Part shown: positions 636 through 32,077 of the stretch, one piece after another
Numbering within the stretch: the stretch's first letter is position 1
How the letters are laid out: each line of letters begins with the position of its first letter
From: Rhodovarius crocodyli
GTDB taxonomy: Bacteria; Pseudomonadota; Alphaproteobacteria; Acetobacterales; Acetobacteraceae
Assembly (NCBI RefSeq): GCF_004005855.1
Contig: NZ_SACL01000001.1
Span: forward strand, 620,001-684,000
Direction: 5' to 3'
Length of the DNA stretch: 64,000 nucleotides
Translations under genes and position numbers: made by a program
The notes under the pieces: generated by a model
The model's database searches: none
The model's input: only the letters and a program-made list of their open reading frames with translations
Told to the model about the DNA's origin: nothing

Positions 636-2335
636 TGCGCTGGTCCACCGCCTGCCCGGATTGGGAGCGACGCATCATCAAGGGCGAGAGCCTGATCCCG
701 TTTCCGCCGCTGTTCCCGACCGAGGCGCATGAGGCCATGCGCATCTTCGAGGATCTACTGATCGTTGATGCGCCCGGCAGCCCTCGCATTGGCGATGCGT
801 GTCGGCCTTGGGTGCTGGACTTCGCCCGTGCCGTATTCGGTTCCTATGACGCCCAGAGTGGGCGCCGGCTGATCCGGGAGTACTTCCTCTCGGTAGCCAA
901 GAAGAACGCCAAGTCCACAATAGCGGCGGGCATCATGCTCACCGCGCTGCTGCGGAACTGGCGTGAGTCGGGCGAGTTCATGATCCTCGCTCCCACGATC
1001 GAGATCGCCAACAACAGCTTCGGCCCGGCGCATGACATGATCCGCAAGGATGAGGAACTGCAGAAGCTCCTCGATGTCAGCACCCATGAGCGCCTGATCC
1101 GGCACCGCAACACCAAGGCTACACTGAAGGTGGTGGCCGCCGCTGACGATACGGTGGGTGGCAAGAAAACCATCGGCCTGCTGGTGGATGAGGTGTGGCA
1201 GTTCGGACTGAAGCCGAACGCCAGCAGCATGCTGCGCGAGGCGATGGGCGGGCATGCCTCCCGGCCCGAGGGCTTCGCCATCTACCTGACCACGCAGTCA
1301 TCCCAGCCGCCGGCGGGCGTGTACAAGGAGAAGCTGGACTACTTCCGCGACGTGCGGGATGGCCTGATCGACGACAATGCCAGCCTGCCGGTGCTGTACG
1401 AGTTCCCGGAGTCGATGCTGAAGGCCGGCCAGCACCGCGTGGCCGACAACTTCTACATCACCAACCCCAACCTGGGCGCTTCGGTCGATCTGCCCTTCCT
1501 CCTGCGGGAAATGGCCAAGGCCGAGCGTGTAGGCGAAGCGGAGCTGAACGACTTCCTGGCCAAGCACCTGAACGTGCAGATCGGCCAGAACATGCGCAAC
1601 GGCCGCTGGGCCGGCGCAGATCACTGGCCTTCCAGTGTCGATGCCTCGATCACGCTAGAGACCATCATGGCGCGGTGCGACGTGATCACGGTGGCTGTCG
1701 ATGGCGGTGGCCTCGATGACCTGCTCGGGCTTTGCGTGCTGGGGAAGGATCGCGTGACGGATCGCTGGCTGTCTTGGGTCAGGGCCTGGGTGCATCCGGT
1801 GGCGCTGGCCCGGCGCAAAAGCATCGCCAGCGAACTGGCTGACTATGCCAAGGCTGGCGACCTGGTGATGGTGGACACCATCGGCCAGGACGTGCGCGAG
1901 GTGGCCGACCTGATCGCCCGCATCCGTAACGCTGGCAAGCTCGGTGGCATCGGACTGGACCCGTATGGCATCGGGGACATTCCGGCCGAGCTGCGGGCCC
2001 GCGGCATTGAGGGCGACACGCAGTATGACGGGCAGCCTGGGCCCTTGGTCATGGGCATCCCCCAGGGCTGGAAGATCAACGCCGCGATCAAGACGGCCGA
2101 GCGGGGCCTGGCGGCGGGCACCATCGCCCATGCGGATCAGGCCTTGATGAGCTGGTGCGTGGGCAATGCGAAGGCGGAGGCCAAGGGCAACGCAACCTCC
2201 ATCACCAAGCAGATGGCCGGTACCGGGAAGATCGACCCGCTGATCGCCTTCTTCATGGCGGTCGAGGTGATGACGCGGAACCCGGAGCCGGTCGCGAAAT
2301 CGTTCTGGGAAACCATGGCCCCTGAGGAGGCGTGA
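632..2335 (+). CDS. Terminase large subunit (packaging ATPase/nuclease)
   Basis: Packages DNA into the prohead, powered by ATP, and cuts concatemers. The 567-residue length is normal for the HK97/Terminase_1 type. A Walker A-like segment SVAKKNAKSTIAAG lies near residues 87-100 and a Walker B IGLLVDEVW near 181-189 (D186, E187). The C-terminal half has the acidic VAVDGGGLDD stretch expected of the RNase H-like nuclease, near residue 355. The ATG at 632 overlaps the upstream TGA, giving translational coupling. The portal gene follows directly. Confidence 0.93.
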   Translation: MMRWSTACPDWERRIIKGESLIPFPPLFPTEAHEAMRIFEDLLIVDAPGSPRIGDACRPWVLDFARAVFGSYDAQSGRRLIREYFLSVAKKNAKSTIAAGIMLTALLRNWRESGEFMILAPTIEIANNSFGPAHDMIRKDEELQKLLDVSTHERLIRHRNTKATLKVVAAADDTVGGKKTIGLLVDEVWQFGLKPNASSMLREAMGGHASRPEGFAIYLTTQSSQPPAGVYKEKLDYFRDVRDGLIDDNASLPVLYEFPESMLKAGQHRVADNFYITNPNLGASVDLPFLLREMAKAERVGEAELNDFLAKHLNVQIGQNMRNGRWAGADHWPSSVDASITLETIMARCDVITVAVDGGGLDDLLGLCVLGKDRVTDRWLSWVRAWVHPVALARRKSIASELADYAKAGDLVMVDTIGQDVREVADLIARIRNAGKLGGIGLDPYGIGDIPAELRARGIEGDTQYDGQPGPLVMGIPQGWKINAAIKTAERGLAAGTIAHADQALMSWCVGNAKAEAKGNATSITKQMAGTGKIDPLIAFFMAVEVMTRNPEPVAKSFWETMAPEEA

Positions 2336-3555
2336 TGTCTGTGTTGACGCGCCTGTGGCCGTTCCAGCGCAAATCGGCCGGTGACAGCTGGGAAGACGTG
2401 TTCCGCCGCCTGTTCGGGGGGCGGGAGACGAAAGCGGGCATCACGCTGACCGCTGATACCGCCATGCAGGTCACAGCCGTGCTACGCTGCGTGCTGGTCA
2501 TCGCTGATGGCATCGCCACGGTGCCGCTGAAGGTGTTCCGGAAGGACGCCAGCACCGGCCGGCGCGAAGTGGCGACCGACCACCCGCTGCTGGACCTGCT
2601 GGCGGTCGAACCGAATGACTGGCAGGACGCTCTCCAGTTTCGCGAGACGCTGGCCATGCACGTCGCGCTGCTGGGCAATGCCTACGTCTTCATCAACCGT
2701 GTGCGCGGCCAGATCAGCGAACTGCTGCCGCTGGACCCGTCCCGCGTCATGGTGAAGCGCGGCGCCGATTTGCGGCTGACCTATACCGTCACCAGCGAGG
2801 CAGGAATCGCGCAGCAGTTCCCGGCCGAGGCCATCTGGCACCTGCGCGGCCCGTCCTGGAACAGCTGGATGGGGATGGAGCCGCTTCGCATGGCACGCGA
2901 GGCCATCGGCCTGTCCGTCGCGCTCGAAACCTCGCATGCCAGCCTGCACAAGAACGGGGTGCAGAGCACCGGCATGTACTCGGTCGAGGGTTCGATGACC
3001 CCCGACCAGTACAAGTTCCTGCGGGCCTGGATCGAGCAGCACAACGCCGGCGCCCACCATGCGGGCAAGCCGCTGCTTCTGGACCGCGCGGCAAAATGGA
3101 CGCCGCTGACCATGAGCGGCGTGGATGCCCAGCACCTGGAGACCAGGCGCCACCAGATCGAGGAGATCTGCCGGGCGTTCGGGGTGATGCCGATCATGGT
3201 GGGCTATTCGGACAAGGCGAGCACCTATGCCAGCGCCGAGCAGATGTTCCTCGCGCACGCGGTGCATACCATCCGGCCGTGGCATCGGCGCTTCGAGGCC
3301 TCGATTACCCGGACGCTTCTGACCAAGGCCGATCGTGACGCGGGCCTGTATCCGAAATTCCTTGATGCCGAGCTGCTGCGTGGTGCGGCGAAGGATCGAG
3401 CCGAATTCTACAGGTCCGGCATCGCGGCGGGGTGGCTGATGCGCAATGAGGCGCGCGAATGGGAGGAACTGGACCCGAAGGATGGTCTCAGTGAGCCGCT
3501 TTCGCCCTCCAACATGGTCGTTGGCAACCCGCCGGCAACGTCGCCGAACCCATAG
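2335..3555 (+). CDS. Phage portal protein (HK97 family)
   Basis: Forms the dodecameric ring at the capsid vertex through which DNA passes. At 406 residues and placed between terminase and protease, it fits the HK97-type portal. Recognisable segments include an early helix with MQVTAVLRCVLVIADGIATV and the later GVMPIMVGYSDKASTYASAE stretch typical of this family. The ATG at 2335 is preceded by a strong GAGGAGG ribosome site. A GTG one codon upstream (2332) is an alternative start and overlaps the terminase stop. Confidence 0.92.
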   Translation: MSVLTRLWPFQRKSAGDSWEDVFRRLFGGRETKAGITLTADTAMQVTAVLRCVLVIADGIATVPLKVFRKDASTGRREVATDHPLLDLLAVEPNDWQDALQFRETLAMHVALLGNAYVFINRVRGQISELLPLDPSRVMVKRGADLRLTYTVTSEAGIAQQFPAEAIWHLRGPSWNSWMGMEPLRMAREAIGLSVALETSHASLHKNGVQSTGMYSVEGSMTPDQYKFLRAWIEQHNAGAHHAGKPLLLDRAAKWTPLTMSGVDAQHLETRRHQIEEICRAFGVMPIMVGYSDKASTYASAEQMFLAHAVHTIRPWHRRFEASITRTLLTKADRDAGLYPKFLDAELLRGAAKDRAEFYRSGIAAGWLMRNEAREWEELDPKDGLSEPLSPSNMVVGNPPATSPNP

Positions 3556-14367: not shown

Positions 14368-14475
14368 TTTCGTCCCCCTGAGCTAGGGCGCGAATGTGCC
14401 GCGCCGCGCTTCGATCGACATCATTCAAATCAATGACGCGCTGGGGCAACCCGTGTGCCGCCGTCTGGAGGTCGC

Positions 14476-17400
14476 ATGACCACTCTCCGCGAGGTTGCTG
14501 AACTGGAAGTCCGGCTCCGCAACGGGGTGAGCGAAGGCGCCGCTGCTGCTGCGCGCGAGCTGGAGCAGGTCGAGGCGGCGGCGACAAAGGCCCAGGCCGC
14601 CCTCAAGGCGACCGATGGCACCCTTTCGCTGGTGGGCAACAGCTTCGACACGCTGACCGCGAAGGTGGATGCCAACGCCCGCGCCGAGCAGCAGCGGCAG
14701 GCCATATCCGCGCGCGCAGAGCGCCAGGCGGCGGAACTCACGGCCGCCGCGGCGCGCGAGGGGCGCAGCCAGGATGAACTGGCGCGCTCCATTGCCGCTG
14801 TGACAGAGCGGCGGGATGCCGACATCGCCAAGGTGGACCAGGCACTGGCCCGGGCCCGCGCGCAGCAGATGGCGCTGACGGGCGGCGTCACGGCGCAAAC
14901 CCAGGCCATGGCGGCCAGCGCCAGCGCCACGAACTCGGCGGCCTCATCCACCGGCCGGTTCACGGCGGCGATCGGTCAGGCTGGCTTCCAGGTGCAGGAT
15001 CTCGCGGTGCAGCTGGCCGGCGGCCAGAACGCGCTGGTGGCTTTCAGCCAGCAGGGCTCGCAGCTCCTGGGCGCCTTCGGCAAGTGGGGTGCCATCGCCG
15101 GCGCCGCGCTGGCGGTGGGTGGCCTGGTACTCCAGCTGGCCCTGGGCAAGACCGAAGCCGAGAAGCTGACAGCTGCCATTGAGGGGCAGCGCACGGCCTA
15201 TCAGGATGTGACGCGCCGGGCCGATGAATATGTGTCCGCGCTGTCCCGTCAGGGGCTGCAGTATGTGAGCGCAGCCGAGGCCGGGCGGCGCTATCGCGAG
15301 GGCCTCCAGCAGGAAGCGCAGTCGGTCGTGAACCTCGCCCGCTATTATGGCGGGCTGGATGAGGCTCAGCGCCAGGTGGAGGCGCGCCGTCTCCAAGACC
15401 AGCAACTGACCCTCGGTGCGCGCCAGGAAGGGCTGCTGCGGCAGGTCGGTTCCACGATGGGCCGCTATGTGGGCGCCTTCGGCAATGCCGAAAGCCAATC
15501 CCTGGAGCGGAACCTGGGCGTATATCTGGAGGCTGGCAACCTAGACCTGACGGGGCTACGTCGCCTGGCCGATCAGGCGCTGTCGGTGGCCCGGGCTACC
15601 GCGACCAGCACCGAAGAATTCACCTCTAATCAACGCGCGATCCTGACCTTGGTCGAGGCTGTGGAGCGATACCAGGACGCGCTGCGTCAGCTCGGTGTGC
15701 AGCAGCGCACGCTGGCGGGGCAGAATGGCGCTGAGGTCACCCTTCGCCGATTCGAGCAGACGACGGGCGAGTTGGGCGGGCGGTACCAGACGGGCCAGCG
15801 TATCCAGCAGCAGCGCCAATACATCCGGGAGGGGATGGCGCTGGGCACGCTCACGCCCGAACAGGCAGCCGCCGGACGTTCTTCCCTCCAGGTCTTGGCG
15901 CAGCAGGAACAGGGCCTGACCCCCGCCACGACGCAGCAGCTTCGGGCGCTGCGGGAGCAGGCATCCCTCGCCCTGGCGGCAGAGGGCGCGGCGCGGGAGC
16001 TGGCGCAGGCCGAGCTGGAGTTGGACAGGGCCGCGCGCTCATCTGGTGCCGGCATGGCCAGCGCCTCGGAAAAGGCAGAGGCCCGCCGACTGGTGCAGGA
16101 GCGGCTAGAGCGCCAGCTCGTCTCCAGCTTGGTCACGCTGAATCGCCAGATCGACGGCGAGGAACAGATCGCGGCTGCCTATGGCCGCAGTGATCAGGAG
16201 GGCCGCCGCGCCGAATCGCGCATTCGCGCCGAGGCGGAGGCGCTGCGCTACGCCGAGGAAGGAACCCGCGACTATGAGCGCGCGGTCGATACCCTCACGG
16301 TTCGCTATACGAAGCTGGCCGAGGTGCAGGCCCAGCGCCAGCAGGCCACCCGCAACATTCAGTCGCGCGACGAGCTGGCCGTGCTTGAGCGCGAGGCGCA
16401 ACTGGTCAGTGTCACGGCCGAGGCCCGCGAGCGAGAACTGGCGGTGCTCCGCGCCCAGCAATCCACCCGCAGCATCGCTGGCACGCCGGAGGCTGCGGAA
16501 GCGGTGCGCCTGGCGGGCAGCCTGGCCGATGCGCGTAGCAACCTCCAGCTGTTGCAGAACTCCTGGGGCGAGGTGTCGCGCCTGGGCGAACAGGCCTTCG
16601 ACCGGATCGGCAGCGCCATCACGCAGGCCTTTGCCAATGGCAGCCTGAAGGCGCTCGACTTCGGCAACGTGGCCCGTGCGGTGCTGAGCGAGATCGTCCA
16701 ATCCGCCCTGCGCCTCAGCTTGGTGAATCCTGTGCTGAACAGCCTGTTCGGCGGCACGCGGGGCACTCTGGGCGGGGTGAGCGCCGTCATCGGCGGCACG
16801 AAGGATATGAGCGGGAGCGCGTCCACTGGCTCGCTGCTGTCCACCGGCGGCGGGGCGCTGTCGATCGGGAACCGCCTTTTCGGCGGCAGCGGCGGCGGCA
16901 GCTTCCTGGGCGGCTACGGCTTTCTGACTGATCCCTCTGCCTTGGCCAGCACTGGTTGGGGTGGTCTTGATGGCGTCCTGAATACCCAGCTTGTCGGCAA
17001 CTCCACCAATGCCGCTCTTGGGGGGCTGGGAAGCGGTGTATATGGGCCCGCGACGCAGGCGCAGCTTCAGGCTGCCGGAGGCCCCGGCCTCACCCTCGGC
17101 GGCGCCCTCGGCAGCGCCCTGGCCATCGGCGGTGGCATTTATGGCGCCATCTCGGGCTTCCAGCGCGGCGGCCTGGGCGGCACCCTGTCCGGCATTGGTG
17201 GCGTCACCAGCGCCGTCACCGGTGCTGCCACCCTCGGTTCCTCTCTGGGCCTGCTGCCCGCCCTCGGCGCTCTCGGGCCAGTCGGCATCATCGGTGGGGC
17301 GCTGCTGGCGCTGATCGGCGGCCTGCTGCCGGGCCAGAAGCCCAGCGGCAAGGGTCAGGAATTCCGCCTGGACCTGGCCACGGGCGCCGAGGAACGCAAC

Positions 17401-18606
17401 GGCCTCACCGGCAACCGCTACAGCGCGCAGAATGCCTCCCAGGCCGAGACTGCGGCGCGCAGCCTGGCCAACCTTGCCACCACCATCGGTGACCAGCTGG
17501 GCGGCCTGCGCCTCGGCGGGGAGCTCGCGGTGGGCGTCACCTCCGGCCGGGGTGGCGACGACAAGGGCAACCTCTATCTCGACTACAGCGGCCAGAAGGC
17601 GCAGTTCGCGAACACCGAGGAAGGCGCGCAGCAGCTCGCCACCCGGGCCGGCGAGTTCCTGCTGGAGGGCTTCCGCAAGATTGCGCAGGGCGACTACCTC
17701 TCGATCCTCAACGCCTCCGGCAACAGCGTCGAAACGCTGTCCAGCAACCTGGAATGGTACAAGGGCACCTATCAGGCCCTGACCAAGACGGGTGAGGCCG
17801 CCAGCGAATTCGAGAAGTCGCTGACCGCCCTCAGCGATCAGTGGCAGCCCGCCATCGACAAGGCCAATGAGCTGGGCCTGGCCACGGCTGCCCTGACCGA
17901 TGTGCGTGACCTGGAAATCGCAAAGCTGCGGGAACAGCGGGCGCTCCAGGTCGCGGGCTATGATGTGGGCCTCGATGTCCGCAGCCTGCGGGCGCGCGGC
18001 CTGGCGCAGGAGGCGGACCTGGCCGCCTTCGACTTCGCGGCCCGGCAGGAGCTGTTCACGGCGCGCAGCACGCTGGAGGGGCTTGGGCTGAGCGCCGAGG
18101 ATGTCTCGGCCCGCATCCTGCGCACCGAGCAGGTGCAGGCCGAGGAACGCCTGGCCATCGTCCAGAAGTCCGCGCAGCAGATCACCGAGGCGCAGATCGC
18201 CGGCGCGAAGTCGGTGCTGGACTGGCTGACGGCGCAGCAGCTCGGGGCCACCTCCAGCCTGTCGCCCACCGCCCGGCTGGCGGCGGCGCAGGGGGCCTTC
18301 GATGCGGCGCTGTCAGGCGGGGATGCCTCCAAGGTCACCTCGGCTGCCGATGCGCTGCTGACCGCCGGCCAGAACGTCTATGGCGGCGCCACCGGTAGCT
18401 ATGCCCGGCTGGAAGGCTTCGTTCGCAGCGAGGTGGCGGGCTTCGGCACCAACGCCGCGGTGCAGGGTGGCGATGTCGCCCTGCAGAAGGCCATCGCCGA
18501 ACTGGCCCGCCAGAACGCCTCCACCATGGCGGCGCTGACGGAGCAGGTCGGCGCACTGGTCCGGGAGTTCCGCCTGAACACCAGCAGGGAGTCCATGAGC
18601 GCATGA
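14476..18606 (+). CDS. Tail tape measure protein
   Basis: Sets tail length and helps DNA entry. The 1376-residue protein has long Ala/Gln/Arg-rich helices (residues ~1-700), hydrophobic stretches such as WGAIAGAALAVGGLVLQLAL near residue 215 and GPVGIIGGALLALIGGLLPG near residue 940, and a glycine-rich centre. The ATG at 14476 has GGAGG nine bases upstream; a GTG at 14455 is a weaker alternative. It is the longest gene of the late operon, as expected, and its stop overlaps the next start. Confidence 0.92.
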   Translation: MTTLREVAELEVRLRNGVSEGAAAAARELEQVEAAATKAQAALKATDGTLSLVGNSFDTLTAKVDANARAEQQRQAISARAERQAAELTAAAAREGRSQDELARSIAAVTERRDADIAKVDQALARARAQQMALTGGVTAQTQAMAASASATNSAASSTGRFTAAIGQAGFQVQDLAVQLAGGQNALVAFSQQGSQLLGAFGKWGAIAGAALAVGGLVLQLALGKTEAEKLTAAIEGQRTAYQDVTRRADEYVSALSRQGLQYVSAAEAGRRYREGLQQEAQSVVNLARYYGGLDEAQRQVEARRLQDQQLTLGARQEGLLRQVGSTMGRYVGAFGNAESQSLERNLGVYLEAGNLDLTGLRRLADQALSVARATATSTEEFTSNQRAILTLVEAVERYQDALRQLGVQQRTLAGQNGAEVTLRRFEQTTGELGGRYQTGQRIQQQRQYIREGMALGTLTPEQAAAGRSSLQVLAQQEQGLTPATTQQLRALREQASLALAAEGAARELAQAELELDRAARSSGAGMASASEKAEARRLVQERLERQLVSSLVTLNRQIDGEEQIAAAYGRSDQEGRRAESRIRAEAEALRYAEEGTRDYERAVDTLTVRYTKLAEVQAQRQQATRNIQSRDELAVLEREAQLVSVTAEARERELAVLRAQQSTRSIAGTPEAAEAVRLAGSLADARSNLQLLQNSWGEVSRLGEQAFDRIGSAITQAFANGSLKALDFGNVARAVLSEIVQSALRLSLVNPVLNSLFGGTRGTLGGVSAVIGGTKDMSGSASTGSLLSTGGGALSIGNRLFGGSGGGSFLGGYGFLTDPSALASTGWGGLDGVLNTQLVGNSTNAALGGLGSGVYGPATQAQLQAAGGPGLTLGGALGSALAIGGGIYGAISGFQRGGLGGTLSGIGGVTSAVTGAATLGSSLGLLPALGALGPVGIIGGALLALIGGLLPGQKPSGKGQEFRLDLATGAEERNGLTGNRYSAQNASQAETAARSLANLATTIGDQLGGLRLGGELAVGVTSGRGGDDKGNLYLDYSGQKAQFANTEEGAQQLATRAGEFLLEGFRKIAQGDYLSILNASGNSVETLSSNLEWYKGTYQALTKTGEAASEFEKSLTALSDQWQPAIDKANELGLATAALTDVRDLEIAKLREQRALQVAGYDVGLDVRSLRARGLAQEADLAAFDFAARQELFTARSTLEGLGLSAEDVSARILRTEQVQAEERLAIVQKSAQQITEAQIAGAKSVLDWLTAQQLGATSSLSPTARLAAAQGAFDAALSGGDASKVTSAADALLTAGQNVYGGATGSYARLEGFVRSEVAGFGTNAAVQGGDVALQKAIAELARQNASTMAALTEQVGALVREFRLNTSRESMSA

Positions 18607-22824: not shown

Positions 22825-23178
22825 CTACTCCGCCGCCGTGCCCAGCGCGCGGGCCGTCATCTCCGGCTCGCGCATGATCACCTTCAGGTAGGACGTGGCC
22901 GCCTGGTCGGGAATGCGGCGCCTCTGCTCCCAGTCGCGCAGGGTTCCGACCGGGATGCCGTATCGGTCTGCAAAGGCCGCCTGCGACAGCTTCAGCCGGG
23001 CACGGAGCGCCAGCACCATGCCGGCCGCGCTCTCCCTGTCCGTCAGGATGGGGGCGGCGTCGGGGTTCTCGGCCGCCTGGCGCTCAATGTCGGCATCGGT
23101 CAGTGCGTCCTGGGCTGCCCAGTCCACGGCCTTCAGCGCCTTCTCGGCGGTGGCCTTTGTCGCCTTCACGATAGCCAT
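22825..23178 (-). CDS. HTH antitoxin paired with BrnT-like toxin
   Basis: The 117-residue product has a helix-turn-helix of Xre type near residues 55-105 (ALRARLKLSQAAFADRYGIP, then LRDWEQRRR). It overlaps the toxin gene by 13 bases, as in many toxin-antitoxin operons. Classical BrnA antitoxins are ribbon-helix-helix proteins; here the partner is an HTH protein, a known variant arrangement. It should bind the palindromes upstream of the toxin gene and repress the operon. Confidence 0.85.
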   Translation of the reverse strand: MAIVKATKATAEKALKAVDWAAQDALTDADIERQAAENPDAAPILTDRESAAGMVLALRARLKLSQAAFADRYGIPVGTLRDWEQRRRIPDQAATSYLKVIMREPEMTARALGTAAE

Positions 23179-23429
23179 CTCTTTTGCTCCTTCGTGTGGG
23201 CCTTGCGGACCGAGATGATCCGCAGGGCCTCGCCGCGCGGGGTGTAAGTGCAAACGAACAGGCGCCCCGCCACCAGCCCGAAAGCGTTGAAGCGGGGCTC
23301 GCCGTAGTCGCGGCGCACGTCCTGCTCCTCGCCCACCAGACCCTCGAAGATCAGCACTGCCAGCGCCAGGGACACGCCGTGCTTGGCGATGTTGCTGGCG
23401 TCCTTCGCGGTGTCGAACTCGATGTCCAT
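23166..23429 (-). CDS. brnT: BrnT family ribonuclease toxin
   Basis: An 87-residue protein with the BrnT (DUF497) hallmarks: FDTAKDASNIAKHGVSL near the start, a central DVRRDYGEPRF and the C-terminal GEALRIISVRKAHTKEQKRW. BrnT is a RelE-like mRNA-cleaving toxin neutralised by its partner antitoxin. The pair lies on the minus strand between two phage lysis genes and may stabilise the prophage or act in phage exclusion. Start chosen at MDIEFD because upstream codons in frame lie in the operator region. Confidence 0.88.
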   Translation of the reverse strand: MDIEFDTAKDASNIAKHGVSLALAVLIFEGLVGEEQDVRRDYGEPRFNAFGLVAGRLFVCTYTPRGEALRIISVRKAHTKEQKRWLS

Positions 23430-23438
23430 GCGCAGAAC

Positions 23439-23489
23439 ATACGGCAATGCCGCATGTCTGGCAAGACAGATCATACGGCAATGCCGTAT
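23439..23489 (-). promoter_or_regulatory. Twin palindromic operators of the BrnT operon
   Basis: Two copies of a 17-bp palindrome, ATACGGCA-A-TGCCGTAT, lie at 23439-23455 (one mismatch) and 23473-23489 (perfect), with starts 34 bp apart, about three helical turns. They sit just upstream of brnT and also upstream of the divergent gene at 23510, so the antitoxin could repress both directions. Confidence 0.8.
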
Positions 23490-23509
23490 TTTTCCAACAG
23501 GAGAACATC

Positions 23510-23848
23510 ATGGATCAGGTTATCCAGGCCGTCACCAGCGGTCTCTGGGCGCTGGCTGCTGCCGCGATCACCGCAGCGGCCGGCATCGCCGTCCCCGCGC
23601 TGCGCGCCTGGGCCGTCAACGCGGTCCAGAAGCGCCTCGGCGAGGGCGCGGCCCGCGTGGCGGGCGAGATTGCGGCCGAGGTGGCCGCCAATCCCACCAT
23701 CAATGCCGCGACGCAGGCGATGCTCGATGCGGCGGCTGACAAGCTCCGGCAACGCTTCCCCGACACGGCCGGGCGTCTGCCGCTCGACACCCTGAAGGGC
23801 ATGGTGGCCGGCGAGCTGGGCAAGCTGGGCCAGGGGGTGGCGCGGTGA
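23510..23848 (+). CDS. Putative LL-H-type holin or lysis-associated membrane protein
   Basis: A 112-residue protein with one N-terminal membrane segment (GLWALAAAAITAAAGIAVPAL, residues ~10-30) followed by amphipathic helices, the layout of the LL-H holin group. ATG at 23510 is preceded by CAGGAGAA. It is directly upstream of, and overlaps by 4 bases, the endolysin gene. It is read divergently from the toxin operon and shares the operator region. Confidence 0.7.
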   Translation: MDQVIQAVTSGLWALAAAAITAAAGIAVPALRAWAVNAVQKRLGEGAARVAGEIAAEVAANPTINAATQAMLDAAADKLRQRFPDTAGRLPLDTLKGMVAGELGKLGQGVAR

Positions 23849-24648
23849 GCCTTCTGGCGTGGCTGGGGCGGCTGTTCGCTGCCCCGGCGCCGGCGCTGCC
23901 TGCGGCTCCTGCGCCATTGCCGCCGGCCGTCCCCGTCGCGGCGGTGGGCGATCCGCCTAGCGTGGTGGTCACCGAAACGATGGTGCGGCAGGGCTTCCCG
24001 CGCTGCGCTGACCCCGCCGCCTGGGCGAAGGCGCTGACTGCGGCCTTCGCGCGCTTCCCGGCCTTCACGCCCCTCGGCGCCGCCACCATCATCGCCAAAG
24101 CGCAGGTCGAGACAGGCGGCCTCACGCGCTGGGACGAAAACCTGAACTACTCCAAGCCCGAGCAGCTGCTGAGGATGCACGGCTCCCGTGCGGTGCGCAC
24201 GGAATCGGCCAAGGCCGCCCTGCGCGCGCGTCCCGCAGGCGGCCCCTGGCCCGACATCGCCCTGGCCGAGGCGCGGGAAATCTGCGGCAAGCCCATGGCC
24301 TGCGGTGATCGCGTCTATGCGGCCCTTGGCGGGTATGAGGCCCGTGGGGGCGGCATCGTGCAGCTGACGGGCCTCGATAACCAGCAGGCGTTTGCCCGCT
24401 ACCTGGGCCTGACGTTGGCGCAGGCGCGGGACCACATGCGCACGATCGAGGGCGCGGCGCTGACGGGACCTTGGTACGTCCAGCATTTCGGCGGGCAGGA
24501 TGCCGCCAACCGGGGCGACATGCGCGAGATCCTGCGCATCGTGGCCGGCAAACGGACGCAGGCCGACCTGGCGGCCATCTGGTCGAGCATCCACGGCGAT
24601 GACCAGATGGCCGCCTTCCATCGCTGGCGCGGGCTTCTGGAGGCCTGA
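23845..24648 (+). CDS. Endolysin, GH19-like muramidase/chitinase fold
   Basis: The 267-residue product has an N-terminal hydrophobic and Ala/Pro-rich segment (residues 1-40), which may act as a signal-arrest anchor, then a GH19-type domain: AKAQVETGGLTRWDENLNYS (expected catalytic Glu89) and GGGIVQLTGLDNQQAFARYL. It cuts peptidoglycan at lysis. GTG start overlaps the upstream stop. Decayed copies of related C-termini follow downstream. Confidence 0.85.
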   Translation: MSLLAWLGRLFAAPAPALPAAPAPLPPAVPVAAVGDPPSVVVTETMVRQGFPRCADPAAWAKALTAAFARFPAFTPLGAATIIAKAQVETGGLTRWDENLNYSKPEQLLRMHGSRAVRTESAKAALRARPAGGPWPDIALAEAREICGKPMACGDRVYAALGGYEARGGGIVQLTGLDNQQAFARYLGLTLAQARDHMRTIEGAALTGPWYVQHFGGQDAANRGDMREILRIVAGKRTQADLAAIWSSIHGDDQMAAFHRWRGLLEA

Positions 24649-27250: not shown

Positions 27251-27478
27251 ATGGATTATGCGGCGCCGAAGCCTGTGGATCCGCTCTGGTACCGCGAGGA
27301 TGGGTACTGGATGCGGGCCCAATGCCTCTGTGGGCATGAGGTGACCAAGCCCGTGCACCTCTGGATCAAGGCGCGGCGACTGCGGCGCGAGCTGGCGTTC
27401 TATGAGGTGCAGGACCGACTTCGCTGCACCTGGTGCGGGCAACGCGCCGCAACCATCACCGTCAGCCGCCGGCTTTAG
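27251..27478 (+). CDS. Small zinc-ribbon protein
   Basis: A 75-residue product with two cysteine pairs, QCLCGHEV (CxC) and RCTWCGQR (CxxC), arranged as a zinc ribbon around a basic helix (WIKARRLRRELAFYEV). Such small proteins in prophages are often DNA- or RNA-binding accessory factors. Its stop region overlaps that of the convergent SRAP gene. Confidence 0.7.
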   Translation: MDYAAPKPVDPLWYREDGYWMRAQCLCGHEVTKPVHLWIKARRLRRELAFYEVQDRLRCTWCGQRAATITVSRRL

Positions 27479-28158
27479 ATGAGCAGCGGTCCCGGTACGG
27501 GCTGCAATAGCGTGGGGTCATCGTCGCCCACGCCGGTCCTGTTCACCCGGCTGTCCACGATGTGCTCGCGCAGCAGATCCTCGCGCGCGGCCACCAGACC
27601 TTCCTCGCCGATCTCGCCCGACAGCCAAGCCTCATGCTGCTCGGGCTCCAGCACCACCACCATGCGGTCGTGATAGCGCTCCATCCACGCGTTCGGGCTG
27701 GTGACGATCATGGTGCAGCTGGTGATCGCCTCGCCCTTAGGGTCGCGCCACGCCTCCCACATGCCGGCGATCGACAGGATGGGCGCGCCGTCGGCCGCCG
27801 TGAACAGGTGCGGGATCTTCGCCTTGCCGCGCGTCTCCCACTCATAGAAACCCGACACGGGGATGATGCAGCGCCGGCGGGCCTTCCAGGCGCCGCGAAA
27901 CATCGGCTTCTCGGTCACGGTCTCGGCGCGGGCGTTGAAGGTGGCGGGCACTTCCTTCGCCGTCTTCTTCCACCAGGCAGGGATGAGGCCGCAGCGCATG
28001 TAGCTCGCCTGGCGCTCGCCCTCGACGGTGCGGACGGCCAAGATGGAGGTAGTTGGGGCCAGATTGTAGCGCGGCCGCACGTTGATTGGCGGGCCGGCGA
28101 CTTGGAGGTGCTGGCCCAGGTCATGGGCATTGAAGTGCTGGGTAACGCGGCCACACAT
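27475..28158 (-). CDS. SRAP/YedK-HMCES family abasic-site protein
   Basis: The 227-residue length is typical of the family. The catalytic residues are all present: Cys2 (MCGRVTQ), Asn75 (TFNARAE), Glu106 (GFYEWE) and His163 (RYHDRMVV). YedK/HMCES proteins form a thiazolidine crosslink to abasic sites in single-stranded DNA and shield them. Phages and defence-rich islands often carry extra copies. It is divergent from the ATPase gene at 28227, with 68 bases between the starts and no LexA box seen. Confidence 0.92.
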   Translation of the reverse strand: MCGRVTQHFNAHDLGQHLQVAGPPINVRPRYNLAPTTSILAVRTVEGERQASYMRCGLIPAWWKKTAKEVPATFNARAETVTEKPMFRGAWKARRRCIIPVSGFYEWETRGKAKIPHLFTAADGAPILSIAGMWEAWRDPKGEAITSCTMIVTSPNAWMERYHDRMVVVLEPEQHEAWLSGEIGEEGLVAAREDLLREHIVDSRVNRTGVGDDDPTLLQPVPGPLLI

Positions 28159-28226
28159 ATCTTCATCTTCCCCGAAAACTGGTCTAGGCCATCTTAATAT
28201 TCGCTTGAGTGGCAGGGCTTATCTCA

Positions 28227-29438
28227 ATGAAACGCGCAGATGCCTCAATCCGCTTGAGGCTAAAGAGATTATGCAAAATCCGGGGGGCTCGAAAGCATCA
28301 ACATCGGCTCATTGCGAAAGCTAAGCGGCGCGGTGAGAAATATCAAAAAGCATCATTGTATTATGGCGGCGGGCAAACCCGTTCTGGCAAGGTAACAGGA
28401 CCAGGCCTAAAAATGCCGGCCAATTTTTGCCTCGACAGCAACTACGCAGAGGTCAGCGCATTTCTAGAAAAAATGCGCGAATCCCTTCATCAAGGAATGG
28501 AAAAATGGATAGCAAAAGGAAGGCCAAAATCAAATAACGCAATAATAACGAAATGGTTTGATTTTTCTACTATTCAGCGAATAACTCCTTCCGCCGCACT
28601 TGTGTTAGCGGCTGAATTTGATCGTCTTCGCTTGATAGGACAGCGAGGCCTTATAGCCATCGACGTTCATAAATGGAATCCTGATGTGCTATCAACATTA
28701 CGCCGACTTGGATTATTTGAGATTTGGGAGATGGATCCCCCCAGTTATGATTATCTTGAAAACGACAGCGACAATCTATTTATAATTCCGATGAGGTCTG
28801 GACATGAAGTTCTTGGACAAGCCGCCAGCCAATTGAATGGCGAAATCGCCAACGTAGTAATTGAGGTCGTTAAATCATCATTAATAGGAAAAACCTATTC
28901 TGATGCAGAGCTTGACGAAATATGGGATGATAAAGCCGGAAATATTTATATCATATTAATTGAGGCGATGGACAATGTAATAAATCATGCCTACACAGAT
29001 GATAAAATAAATGGACTTAGAACCGTAAAAAGATGGTGGATGACCGCTGCAATCGACCGATTGAGAAGCAAACTTACTGTCGCTATATATGACCAGGGGA
29101 TTTCTATTCCAGTTAGTTTGCCCTATTCAGAAAATTACCCAAAAATAAAAGGGCTCATTCGCGACTTTCTCGGGGTAGAACACGATATCGAAAACCCGAG
29201 ACATGACGGTGTTGCGATCCGCCAAGCAACCGAGGCATCAAGGAGCTCGACGGGCGAAGCGCATCGCGGGAAGGGCCTCGCCGTCATGGTTTCCTTCATC
29301 GACAAGTGCCGTGATGGAAGGCTGCGCATCCTAAGCAGGCATGGCGAGTTCATCCATGAGAAAGGGTTGGGCGGCTATGTGAACGCTCATCAGACGAGCA
29401 TGGGCGGCACGCTACTCGAATGGGAGGTGCAACTTTGA
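28227..29438 (+). CDS. GHKL-type ATPase with N-terminal STAS-like region
   Basis: A 403-residue protein. Residues 1-45 are very basic. Residues ~100-190 (WFDFSTIQRITPSAALVLAA, then GLIAIDVHKWNPDVLSTLRR) look STAS-like. Residues ~225-400 form a histidine-kinase-like ATPase: N-box EAMDNVINHAY from E246, D-box YDQGISIP with Asp289, and G2 box GKGLAVM at G348-K349-G350. No phospho-acceptor His box is evident, so it is probably not a sensor kinase. The first gene of a three-gene A+T-rich cassette. ATG at 28227 is preferred over the GTG at 28209 because the basic N-terminus begins there. Confidence 0.85.
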   Translation: MKRADASIRLRLKRLCKIRGARKHQHRLIAKAKRRGEKYQKASLYYGGGQTRSGKVTGPGLKMPANFCLDSNYAEVSAFLEKMRESLHQGMEKWIAKGRPKSNNAIITKWFDFSTIQRITPSAALVLAAEFDRLRLIGQRGLIAIDVHKWNPDVLSTLRRLGLFEIWEMDPPSYDYLENDSDNLFIIPMRSGHEVLGQAASQLNGEIANVVIEVVKSSLIGKTYSDAELDEIWDDKAGNIYIILIEAMDNVINHAYTDDKINGLRTVKRWWMTAAIDRLRSKLTVAIYDQGISIPVSLPYSENYPKIKGLIRDFLGVEHDIENPRHDGVAIRQATEASRSSTGEAHRGKGLAVMVSFIDKCRDGRLRILSRHGEFIHEKGLGGYVNAHQTSMGGTLLEWEVQL

Positions 29439-29463
29439 ATCCAACGCTATATAAAAGCTCGCT

Positions 29464-29820
29464 ATGACGGAGCACCTGGTGAGCACCGGCTCGTATACCA
29501 TTGATGTGGCTAGAGACTTCTCTGCCTATCCGGGGGGGCGCTATGCGCGGCTTGGCCCGTTTTCTGGTGAGGCCTTCCGGAAAGAGCAGTTGGAGCCAGC
29601 GTTGCAGCGCGGCGGGAACGTCATCGTGATACTGGACGGCGCAGAGTCGTACCCTGTTTCATTTTTAGAAGAGGCATTCGGCGGACTGGTTCGAGTTAGC
29701 GGCTACTCAAAGTCCGAGCTTGAACAACGCCTCAAGATTCAGGCGTCGAAGCCCCGCCTAGCGACGCTTCGCGATTTAGCCTGGAACTACATAAACAAAG
29801 CTCCAGCAAAATCAAAATAA
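29464..29820 (+). CDS. STAS-like DUF4325 protein
   Basis: A 118-residue protein with the DUF4325 pattern: RYARLGPFSGEAFRKEQLEP, then NVIVILDGAESYPVSFLEEAFGGLVR. The fold is related to anti-anti-sigma STAS domains, which bind GHKL ATPases. The gene follows the ATPase by 25 bases, so a partner-switch pair is likely by analogy with SpoIIAB/SpoIIAA. That analogy is inference. No sigma factor is encoded nearby. Confidence 0.85.
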   Translation: MTEHLVSTGSYTIDVARDFSAYPGGRYARLGPFSGEAFRKEQLEPALQRGGNVIVILDGAESYPVSFLEEAFGGLVRVSGYSKSELEQRLKIQASKPRLATLRDLAWNYINKAPAKSK

Positions 29821-30459
29821 GTGGCGGATTTTCTTCCCGTACTGACCGGCGCGTGCATCGGCGCCGGGGTTTCCGTTAGTGCAATACTTATAAAGGCGAG
29901 CTTAGATTCTTTTATTTCTCTTTGTGATGCATTTTGCGAAAAAATAGAAGAGGCCGCTGATTTAGCCTCAGAATATTGGCTAATCCCAGCTGTTTCTCTG
30001 CCAATTTCAGCTGTGCGCGCTGGACCTCCAGGCCAACAGCCGATCATAAATGAAGACGATGTTAGAATTCGTCTTCTTGAGTCTAGAATTGTGGGCCTGC
30101 AAACTAAAATAGGTCTAATTGGTGAGAGTATTATTCCGGGCCTTCCAGAATTACACCAGCTGAAAATTACAAGAAGTCTTGTAGATTTTTACGAAGCGCT
30201 CTCCGGGGGAACATTCAAAGCTCGTGATGGAAACATTCACGAGGTTTTCGCCGGCATGGCTCAGCATCACTCCGCAGTGATCGTCTCAACCGTCAGATCT
30301 GCCTTGCGGGAGAGGCATACGTTCCGTGGCATGGCTCGCCATCGCACCATGAGCTTGCTGAGGGCAATCGGTGGTAGCTATACAGTTGCAGCTACGGGCC
30401 GGAACGTTTTGTCATTCCCATTTCCCATTGAATTTATTATCGTAATTCTATTGCGGTGA
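29821..30459 (+). CDS. Membrane-anchored helical protein, third gene of ATPase-STAS cassette
   Basis: A 212-residue product starting at the GTG immediately after the DUF4325 stop. It has an N-terminal membrane segment (FLPVLTGACIGAGVSVSAIL, residues ~4-23), a helical middle, and a very hydrophobic C-terminal end (FPFPIEFIIVILLR). No family is recognised. Tight linkage to the ATPase and STAS genes suggests that it is the effector or membrane target of that pair. The tRNA-derived att site begins three bases after its stop. Confidence 0.7.
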   Translation: MADFLPVLTGACIGAGVSVSAILIKASLDSFISLCDAFCEKIEEAADLASEYWLIPAVSLPISAVRAGPPGQQPIINEDDVRIRLLESRIVGLQTKIGLIGESIIPGLPELHQLKITRSLVDFYEALSGGTFKARDGNIHEVFAGMAQHHSAVIVSTVRSALRERHTFRGMARHRTMSLLRAIGGSYTVAATGRNVLSFPFPIEFIIVILLR

Positions 30460-30462
30460 TGG

Positions 30463-30505
30463 CTTTGGGTACAGGAGGTCGTGGGTTCGAATCCCGCCGC
30501 CCCGA
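30463..30505 (+). other. attR: 3' half of tRNA-Pro(UGG)
   Basis: The sequence contains an anticodon loop TTTGGGT (30464-30470, anticodon TGG), its 3' stem ACAGG, a five-base variable loop, a complete T-arm GTGGG-TTCGAAT-CCCGC (30481-30497) and the acceptor 3' strand CGCCCCG with discriminator A at 30505. No matching 5' half (D-arm, acceptor strand) lies upstream, so it is not a working tRNA gene. It is the duplicated end of a tRNA-Pro used as attachment site. Confidence 0.85.
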
Positions 30506-30523
30506 TACCCGTTTGTGAGTTGC

Positions 30524-30988
30524 TTACACGGGAAGGCTCGTCGTGGCCTTGATCTCGGTCATCACCACGCTTGAGGTGATGGCACGCACACCCGGCAGTT
30601 GCGACAGCCGGGTGTAGAAGAAAGTCTCGTAATATTTGATGCTGGGGACAATGATCTTCAGCAATGCGTCGCTGTTGCCCAACAGCAGGTAACACTCGAT
30701 CACTTCCGGCAGCGCGCGCACATGCTCCCGAAAAGCTGTCGTCGCCTCCAGATCATGGGCCGTGAGTTGGATGTTCGCATAAAGCGTGACCTCCAAACCC
30801 ACGGCTGCGGCGTCTACCAGCCATACCTGGCGGCGCAGGCATCCGGCATCCTTCAATCTTTTTACCCTGCGCCAGCATGGCGGCGGCGTCATGCCGATGC
30901 GCTGGGCCAGTTCGTTGACGGTCAACGAGCCGTCCTCCTGCAACATGGTCAGGATACGCCGATCCGTATCGTCCAGGGTTATGCTCAC
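30524..30988 (-). CDS. Lrp/AsnC family transcription regulator
   Basis: A 154-residue protein with an N-terminal winged HTH (DDTDRRILTMLQEDGSLTVN, then LAQRIGMTPPPCWRRVKRL) and a C-terminal RAM/ACT-like ligand domain. The GTG start at 30988 follows GGAAGGA. It is divergent from the EamA transporter, with 126 bases between starts, and probably controls it in response to an amino acid, a common pairing. Confidence 0.9.
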   Translation of the reverse strand: MSITLDDTDRRILTMLQEDGSLTVNELAQRIGMTPPPCWRRVKRLKDAGCLRRQVWLVDAAAVGLEVTLYANIQLTAHDLEATTAFREHVRALPEVIECYLLLGNSDALLKIIVPSIKYYETFFYTRLSQLPGVRAITSSVVMTEIKATTSLPV

Positions 30989-31114
30989 AGATGTCCTTCC
31001 CGATAGGCAGTTATAAAAATACCCGAATTCATGACGCGGCGCAAAAGACAACGCTTGGAATAACCTGGATGAGCGGCGCAACATTGTTGCGTCGCAGCAC
31101 TCCATGAGGCCCGG

Positions 31115-32077
31115 ATGACTGGCAACCGCTTCAGCGCACTGCTCGCCCCGCAACGCATCGGCTGGGTGGCGGCTCTGGTAACGGTGGCCGTCTGGACAAC
31201 CTGGATAACCACGTCGCGCATGGCCATGCAGGGTGCGCAGCCTCTGGATGGCGCACTGCTCGCCTTCCTGCGCTTCGGTACGGCAGGGGTATTGCTGGCG
31301 CCGTTCTGGTGGCGCTTCCGCATCATTCCCAAACAGTCTCCCAAGCTCGCTCTACTGGGCCTTCTCTGCGCCGGGCTTCCCTATCAGTTGCTGGTGCTTG
31401 AGGGCCTGCATCACGCCCCGGCGGCAGAGGCCGGCCCGCTGCTGACAGGCAGCCTGCCGCTGTTCATCGCCCTGCTGAGCGCGACGGTGTTGGGCGAGAA
31501 ACTCGGCCGGGGCCGCATTGCGGGCGTGGCCTTCATCACGGTCGGGGTGGCCTTCATCATGGGCCATGGCCTGATGAATCTCGAGGGGGGCAGCTGGCGC
31601 GGGCATCTGCTGGTGCTGGGCGGCGCCCTGGCCTGGTCGATTTACACGGTCGCCTTCCGATACAGCCGTTTGAGCGGCGTCGAGGCAGCGGCCTTCGTGT
31701 CCTTCTGGTCCGTCGTGCTGCTGGTGCCCGTGGCCGGATGGCGGGTGCTTGAAGGCCTGCAGACCACGGCCCCGTCGCTCCTGCTGCGTCACGTCCTCAT
31801 TCAGGGAGTGATGGCCGGGGTGCTGGCGCTGCTGATCTTCACCTTGGCACTTCGGCATATCGGCGCGGCGCGCACCACCGCCGTCACAGCCCTGACACCG
31901 GTAACCGTGACGCTGGTCGCCGTCATGCTTCTGGGCGAAGTGCCCAGCACCCTGGAACTTCTGGGCTGCGCGCTGGTGGTGTTCGGTGTTCTGGTCACCA
32001 GCGGCGTGCTGCGGTTGCCCAGCCGCCCGTCCCTGCTGGCCGGGGCCATGCCGTCGGCCAACCTTCCCAGCCGGTAA
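31115..32077 (+). CDS. EamA/DMT-family transporter
   Basis: A 320-residue inner-membrane protein with about ten hydrophobic helices in two EamA repeats; GALLAFLRFGTAGVLLAPFW and the later LVVFGVLVTSGVLRLP are typical ends of these. Members export amino acids or other small metabolites. The Lrp-type gene next to it suggests amino-acid export. Substrate cannot be told from sequence. Confidence 0.88.
   Translation: MTGNRFSALLAPQRIGWVAALVTVAVWTTWITTSRMAMQGAQPLDGALLAFLRFGTAGVLLAPFWWRFRIIPKQSPKLALLGLLCAGLPYQLLVLEGLHHAPAAEAGPLLTGSLPLFIALLSATVLGEKLGRGRIAGVAFITVGVAFIMGHGLMNLEGGSWRGHLLVLGGALAWSIYTVAFRYSRLSGVEAAAFVSFWSVVLLVPVAGWRVLEGLQTTAPSLLLRHVLIQGVMAGVLALLIFTLALRHIGAARTTAVTALTPVTVTLVAVMLLGEVPSTLELLGCALVVFGVLVTSGVLRLPSRPSLLAGAMPSANLPSR

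Follow-up and report, generated by a model that had tools for sequence, protein, structure and literature searches.

A prophage border within tRNA-Pro(UGG) of Rhodovarius crocodyli: the displaced 3' part, the related integrases and a neighbouring cargo operon

Integration sites within tRNA genes have reportedly been ordered by sublocation in a scheme that Williams set out in 2002, in which subsite A is the anticodon loop. According to the available part of the Islander description, tyrosine integrases split tRNA genes, after which the island restores the gene and a displaced fragment marks the end of the island; the database holds 2083 islands with anticodon-centred sites (PMC4383910). In the available sections of another source, temperate mycobacteriophages that rebuild the tRNA, such as Boilgate at attB-4 in tRNA-Lys, have a typical core of 30-45 bp (PMC10865867). 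Likewise, the excerpted account of the Francisella phage vB_FhiM_KIRK describes a prophage that lies between attL and attR parts of a tRNA-Val gene (PMC7924643).

We analysed a stretch of 64,000 nucleotides of the Rhodovarius crocodyli genome (the window) that carries the 3' part of a tRNA-Pro(UGG) gene. The locus shares with the subsite A islands of Islander a tyrosine integrase, a tRNA gene restored at one end, a 3' fragment at the other end and a repeat that starts at the anticodon loop. There is no difference in kind from these islands, and it is the combination of host lineage and target that is new. Compared with the Boilgate-type mycobacteriophages, the core is longer (52 bp) and extends 10 bp past the tRNA, and both the host and the tRNA are different. 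As in vB_FhiM_KIRK, the prophage lies between the attL and attR parts of a tRNA gene, with another tRNA and another host. The segment is almost certainly the attR of a 47.5-kb tailed-phage prophage, the tyrosine integrase of which recombines at the anticodon arm of tRNA-Pro(UGG).

Prophage borders and content

An initial annotation had read the segment as an attR in the 3' half of tRNA-Pro(UGG), and this reading is borne out by a 52-bp exact direct repeat. It pairs window positions 30464-30515 (+ strand) with a copy about 17 kb to the left of the window in the same genome (G000:C11:603001-603052, which equals L004:3001-3052), with different flanking sequence on either side. An intact 74-nt tRNA-Pro(UGG) was called by ARAGORN at the left copy (G000:C11:602969-603042, L004:2969-3042), and this is the gene with an identical 3' half that had been predicted there. 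At the window copy ARAGORN called no tRNA and the 5' half is therefore absent, as claimed. Window positions 30464-30505 (+) correspond to tRNA positions 33-74, from the anticodon loop to the discriminator base, and the whole 52-bp block to positions 33-84. Position 33 opens the anticodon loop, whose seven bases TTTGGGT were read from the sequence between CCTGT and ACAGG. The identity does begin at the anticodon loop, at 30464; the start first given, 30463, was one base early, since the window has a C there and the tRNA a T. It reaches the discriminator base (tRNA position 74, window 30505), as had been stated, and does not end there: ten further bases match, up to 30515, and base 30516 differs again.

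A blastn comparison of the tRNA plus 30 nt with the window gave E = 4e-23. For the 42-bp half, no other exact match within the window was longer than 10 bp, whichever strand was compared, and across 100 mononucleotide shuffles of the window the longest was 15 bp. Elsewhere in the genome, only a tRNA-Pro(GGG) gene on contig C22 matched the segment at E <= 0.001 (87% over 39 bases). Energy folding of the tRNA gave a z of -1.0 and the cloverleaf was not recovered.

The uninterrupted site was searched for in nine genomes of the genus, including the window's own, with a query of 407 bases in which the left flank and the tRNA were joined to the right flank. In the congener G002 this query matched in one piece (bases 1-406 of 407, 83% identical), and the tRNA-Pro(UGG) is flanked by homologues of the same host genes, namely an FAD oxidoreductase (87%) and an Lrp-type regulator (89%). 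The initial annotation held that prophage-free relatives should carry no lone fragment, and indeed G002 contains no stray half: the only two other matches at E <= 0.001 are the complete tRNA-Pro(GGG) and tRNA-Pro(CGG) genes. G002 is the only one of the eight congeners with a syntenic empty site. Six of the other seven have tRNA-Pro(UGG) with neither host neighbour in the fetched flanks, and in G003 (82% complete) both loci that were found are Pro(GGG) and Pro(CGG). After the tRNA, G002 reads TATCCGCATG versus TACCCGTTTG at both prophage ends. The phage copy therefore agrees beyond the tRNA with this host and not with G002, and it looks as if the phage site was taken from, or fitted to, this host lineage.

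Two further observations concern the tRNA and its surroundings. The 10 bp past the tRNA end (30506-30515) fit this host, and G002 differs at three of these ten bases. The anticodon loop of tRNA-Pro(UGG) reads TTTGGGT in G000 (the window's own genome), G002, G006 and G200, and TTTGGGA in G001, G004, G005, G007 and G008; the two loops go with different T arms, which makes two tRNA alleles in one genus.

The element spans C11:603001-650463 (47,463 bp) and ends on the right at the segment, where the initial annotation had placed the border. It starts outside the window (G000:C11:603001), and its right part occupies window positions 1-30463 (+). Scans of a selection of the ORFs between the repeats gave matches to a repressor, an exonuclease, a primase and an HNH endonuclease, to the small and large (632-2335, +) terminase subunits, a portal protein (2332-3555, +), a head maturation protease and a major head protein, and to a tail terminator, a minor tail protein, a tape measure protein (14455-18606, +, an N-terminal match), a tail fibre and an endolysin (23845-24648, +). 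Of 50,697 phage records, 547 contain a match to the terminase, none of which reaches 60% identity. PADLOC gave no hit at E <= 0.1 for nine prophage proteins. The prophage also contains a gene for a BrnT-type toxin of a type II toxin-antitoxin system (23166-23474, -); an overlapping ORF (22825-23511, -) has an HTH-like translation and may hold the BrnT partner. A gene for an SRAP protein (SOS response associated peptidase) lies in the cargo region (27475-28158, -). To the right of attR, the host flank begins with an Lrp/AsnC-family regulator (30524-31153, -, as the ORF was listed, with the true start probably further in).

Related integrases and the position of the crossover

The integrase gene that had been predicted for the left end lies directly behind the intact tRNA-Pro(UGG). 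The ORF (L004:3195-4571) begins 153 bp beyond the tRNA's final base and encodes 458 amino acids, with matches to the Pfam families Phage_integrase (41.7 bits, cut-off 27.1) and Arm-DNA-bind_3 (29.7 bits, cut-off 27). Among the 50,697 phage records no match to the integrase was found at 1e-5.

In the mechanism that we propose, recombination by this phage-coded tyrosine integrase joined attP to the anticodon arm of tRNA-Pro(UGG) in the host. Since the incoming attP itself contains the tRNA sequence from the anticodon loop to the end, a complete tRNA gene is rebuilt at attL, next to the integrase gene, while the original 3' half of the host is displaced to the far end, where it forms the window segment. 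We infer that the strand exchange spans the 7 bp TTTGGGT of the anticodon loop (30464-30470, +), that the phage contributed the left copy of the repeat, and that excision of the element is still possible.

Identical core copies cannot place the exchange from this prophage alone and we therefore compared relatives of the integrase. At E <= 1e-30, matches were found in nine of 397 genomes of the family, own genome included. Among 395 genomes of the order, six were found at 1e-60, all of them already known, and a single-sequence integrase scan of genome contigs gave 27 pattern stretches and no relative. Three weaker matches, in G055 (with two internal stops), G235 and G097, lacked a tRNA in the flank that was retrieved and were not considered further. 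Seven integrase ORFs, including that of the window's prophage, align along their length, the other six being 41-54% identical to it. R253, K284, H349, R352, H375 and Y388, which we take to be the catalytic residues, are invariant across the seven. The six related integrases lie behind tRNA genes for Pro(GGG) (G001 and G207), Lys(UUU) (G131), Arg(CCU) (G368), Pro(UGG) (G200) and Thr(CGU), the last in a second element of the window's own genome on contig C43.

Displaced fragments were located for four of these six. The fetched stretches (4-60 kb per element) contained no distal repeat of the related elements, and the four were found by whole-genome searches. The G200 fragment lies 61 kb away on the same contig and strand, and the 50-bp fragment of the Thr(CGU) element about 100 kb away, also on the same contig and strand (G000:C43:364757-464683). 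The fragments in G207 and G368 are on other contigs, so their linkage to the integrase is unproven. For G131 and G001 no displaced fragment was found; in these two the contig continues for 1.6 and 10.5 kb past the integrase before it ends. ARAGORN called no tRNA at any of the four displaced fragments.

Together with the window segment there are five blocks, of 52, 43, 52, 45 and 50 bp, at tRNA genes for Pro(UGG), Pro(GGG), Arg(CCU) and Thr(CGU), and all five include the whole anticodon loop. The left edge is the first base of the loop in four of the five, and the Thr fragment starts 4 bp before it. On the right, the blocks stop 10, 1, 7, 0 and 1 bp beyond the annotated tRNA. If the exchange takes place in the anticodon loop, the left edge should be constant and the right edge should vary, as in these blocks, and the start points of all five located fragments lend indirect support to a crossover that would take place there. 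Directly in front of the loop, four of the five fragments read GC and the intact genes GT, GT, GT and GA, so that GC is perhaps part of the phage core site. In addition, GGYCGT occurs at bases 7-12 to the right of the anticodon loop in six of the seven tRNA targets. From these alignments, GGYCGT and the GC before the loop are possible core-site signals of this group of integrases.

The same prophage with the same borders could also have been produced by an integrase whose crossover point is the T loop or the 3' end of the tRNA, in which case the identity from the anticodon loop would have another cause. The T-arm stretch CGTGGGTTCGAATCCC fits such a site, as it is found in six of the seven target tRNAs (all but Thr) and in only 5-9 copies per genome, compared with 62-73 matches to the general T-loop pattern (4-22 in the reversed control). 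However, CGTGGGTTCGAATCCC overlaps GGYCGT with its first bases and may itself be a core-binding half-site of an anticodon-loop exchange. Moreover, it is the left edge that is fixed, at the anticodon loop in four of the five elements, and the right edge that varies, whereas a crossover in the T loop would not require the phage to match the anticodon arm. We therefore consider a crossover at these other positions very improbable, though the T arm may still play some part.

Two other explanations carry next to no weight. Partial tRNA copies arise in genomes for other reasons, which is the sole point for an old tRNA pseudogene or a chance match unrelated to the prophage, and this was rejected in view of 52 bp of exact identity on the same strand, a paired attL with an integrase, phage genes in between, an empty site in G002 and shuffles that reach 15 bp at most. 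It is equally hard to believe in a tRNA-dependent lysogeny, in which the host tRNA is disrupted on integration and made good by one that the phage carries: a tyrosine integrase with a tRNA target is also found in the phages of that type in the available text of PMC10865867, but there the core is about 10 bp, against 52 bp here. This explanation was rejected because ARAGORN finds a complete tRNA-Pro(UGG) at attL, that is, the host tRNA is restored. No other tRNA was found inside the element by ARAGORN in two adjoining stretches, of which the seam at C11:620000/620001 is a place where a spanning tRNA would be missed.

The three-gene operon beside attR

The last three genes of the prophage (28209-30459) run in one direction, and the final stop ends 4 bp before the attR core. 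The first (28209-29438, +) matches phrog_3364 and stays below the cut-off for Pfam HATPase_c_2 (23.4 vs 27.4 bits), with E252, N256, D295, G297, G354 and G356 invariant in 28 aligned sequences. The model of its product (pLDDT 83) has the anti-sigma factor SpoIIAB as nearest structure in the PDB (E 7e-5), and on these grounds together the product is a SpoIIAB-like GHKL ATPase. The second gene (29464-29820, +) encodes a STAS-like DUF4325 protein. The third (29821-30459, +) encodes a protein of 212 amino acids, for which the model is helical (pLDDT 85, with a poor tail after residue 183) and found no PDB match at E <= 0.001 with Foldseek. Its N-terminus is hydrophobic and probably carries a membrane anchor.

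The operon is also found in other genomes and in viruses. The first gene occurs in four other genomes of 299 in the family; the second adjoins it in all four and the third is detectable in one. IMG/VR gave 186 pattern stretches; a relative of the second gene is encoded in 159, of which 80 were kept. An ORF resembling the first gene lies just upstream on the same strand in 74 of these 80 viral loci (64 of 70 clusters at 90% identity), and three of the six loci without it begin at a contig end. Downstream, 72 of the 80 ORFs group with the third gene by single-linkage blastp at 1e-4, with six matching it directly, and 43 of the 80 pass the same simple hydropathy cut as its N-terminus. A scan of viral contigs for the ATPase gave two pattern stretches and no relative, and a tRNA scan of 35 of the 80 loci found three tRNA genes in two loci.

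In Marinobacter phage AS1 the first and second genes correspond to AS1_41 and AS1_40, which are annotated as hypothetical and lie one gene away from a Cro/CI regulator. In the accessible text on KIRK, ORFs 46-48 are a 293-aa protein resembling a Marinobacter phage AS1 protein, a DUF4325 protein and a small TM protein (PMC7924643). By description these three resemble the operon; there they come after the CI repressor row, while here the operon ends at attR. No PADLOC model matched the operon. Our literature search on DUF4325 found no function, and of the papers retrieved on the operon only that on KIRK was judged relevant.

The pairing of a SpoIIAB-like ATPase with a STAS-like protein is suggestive of a partner switch. 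As a tentative idea, the operon could be a widespread and undescribed phage-borne partner-switch system that would sense infection or stress in the lysogen and act at the membrane, for instance in superinfection exclusion or anti-phage defence. The operon is more unusual than the attR itself and merits its own look.

Class of the site and meaning

A repeat with an intact tRNA at attL only and reaching from the anticodon loop, a tyrosine integrase beside the restored tRNA, phage structural genes between the att sites and an uninterrupted site in a relative are all present at this locus. We therefore classify the segment as an ordinary attR of the anticodon-loop class: the arrangement is a frequent and well understood one, of which this is a new example that fits in every testable feature. 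Both ends of the 47.5-kb prophage are fixed to the base, and a whole tRNA gene is preserved at the junction despite the insertion. With the border placed this precisely, the adjacent cargo operon can be assigned to the phage rather than to the host. Lastly, the related integrases form a small and orderly set: members of a single recombinase group lie behind genes for tRNA-Pro, tRNA-Arg, tRNA-Thr and tRNA-Lys, and every located fragment covers the anticodon loop. This makes the set useful for studying how an integrase changes its target.
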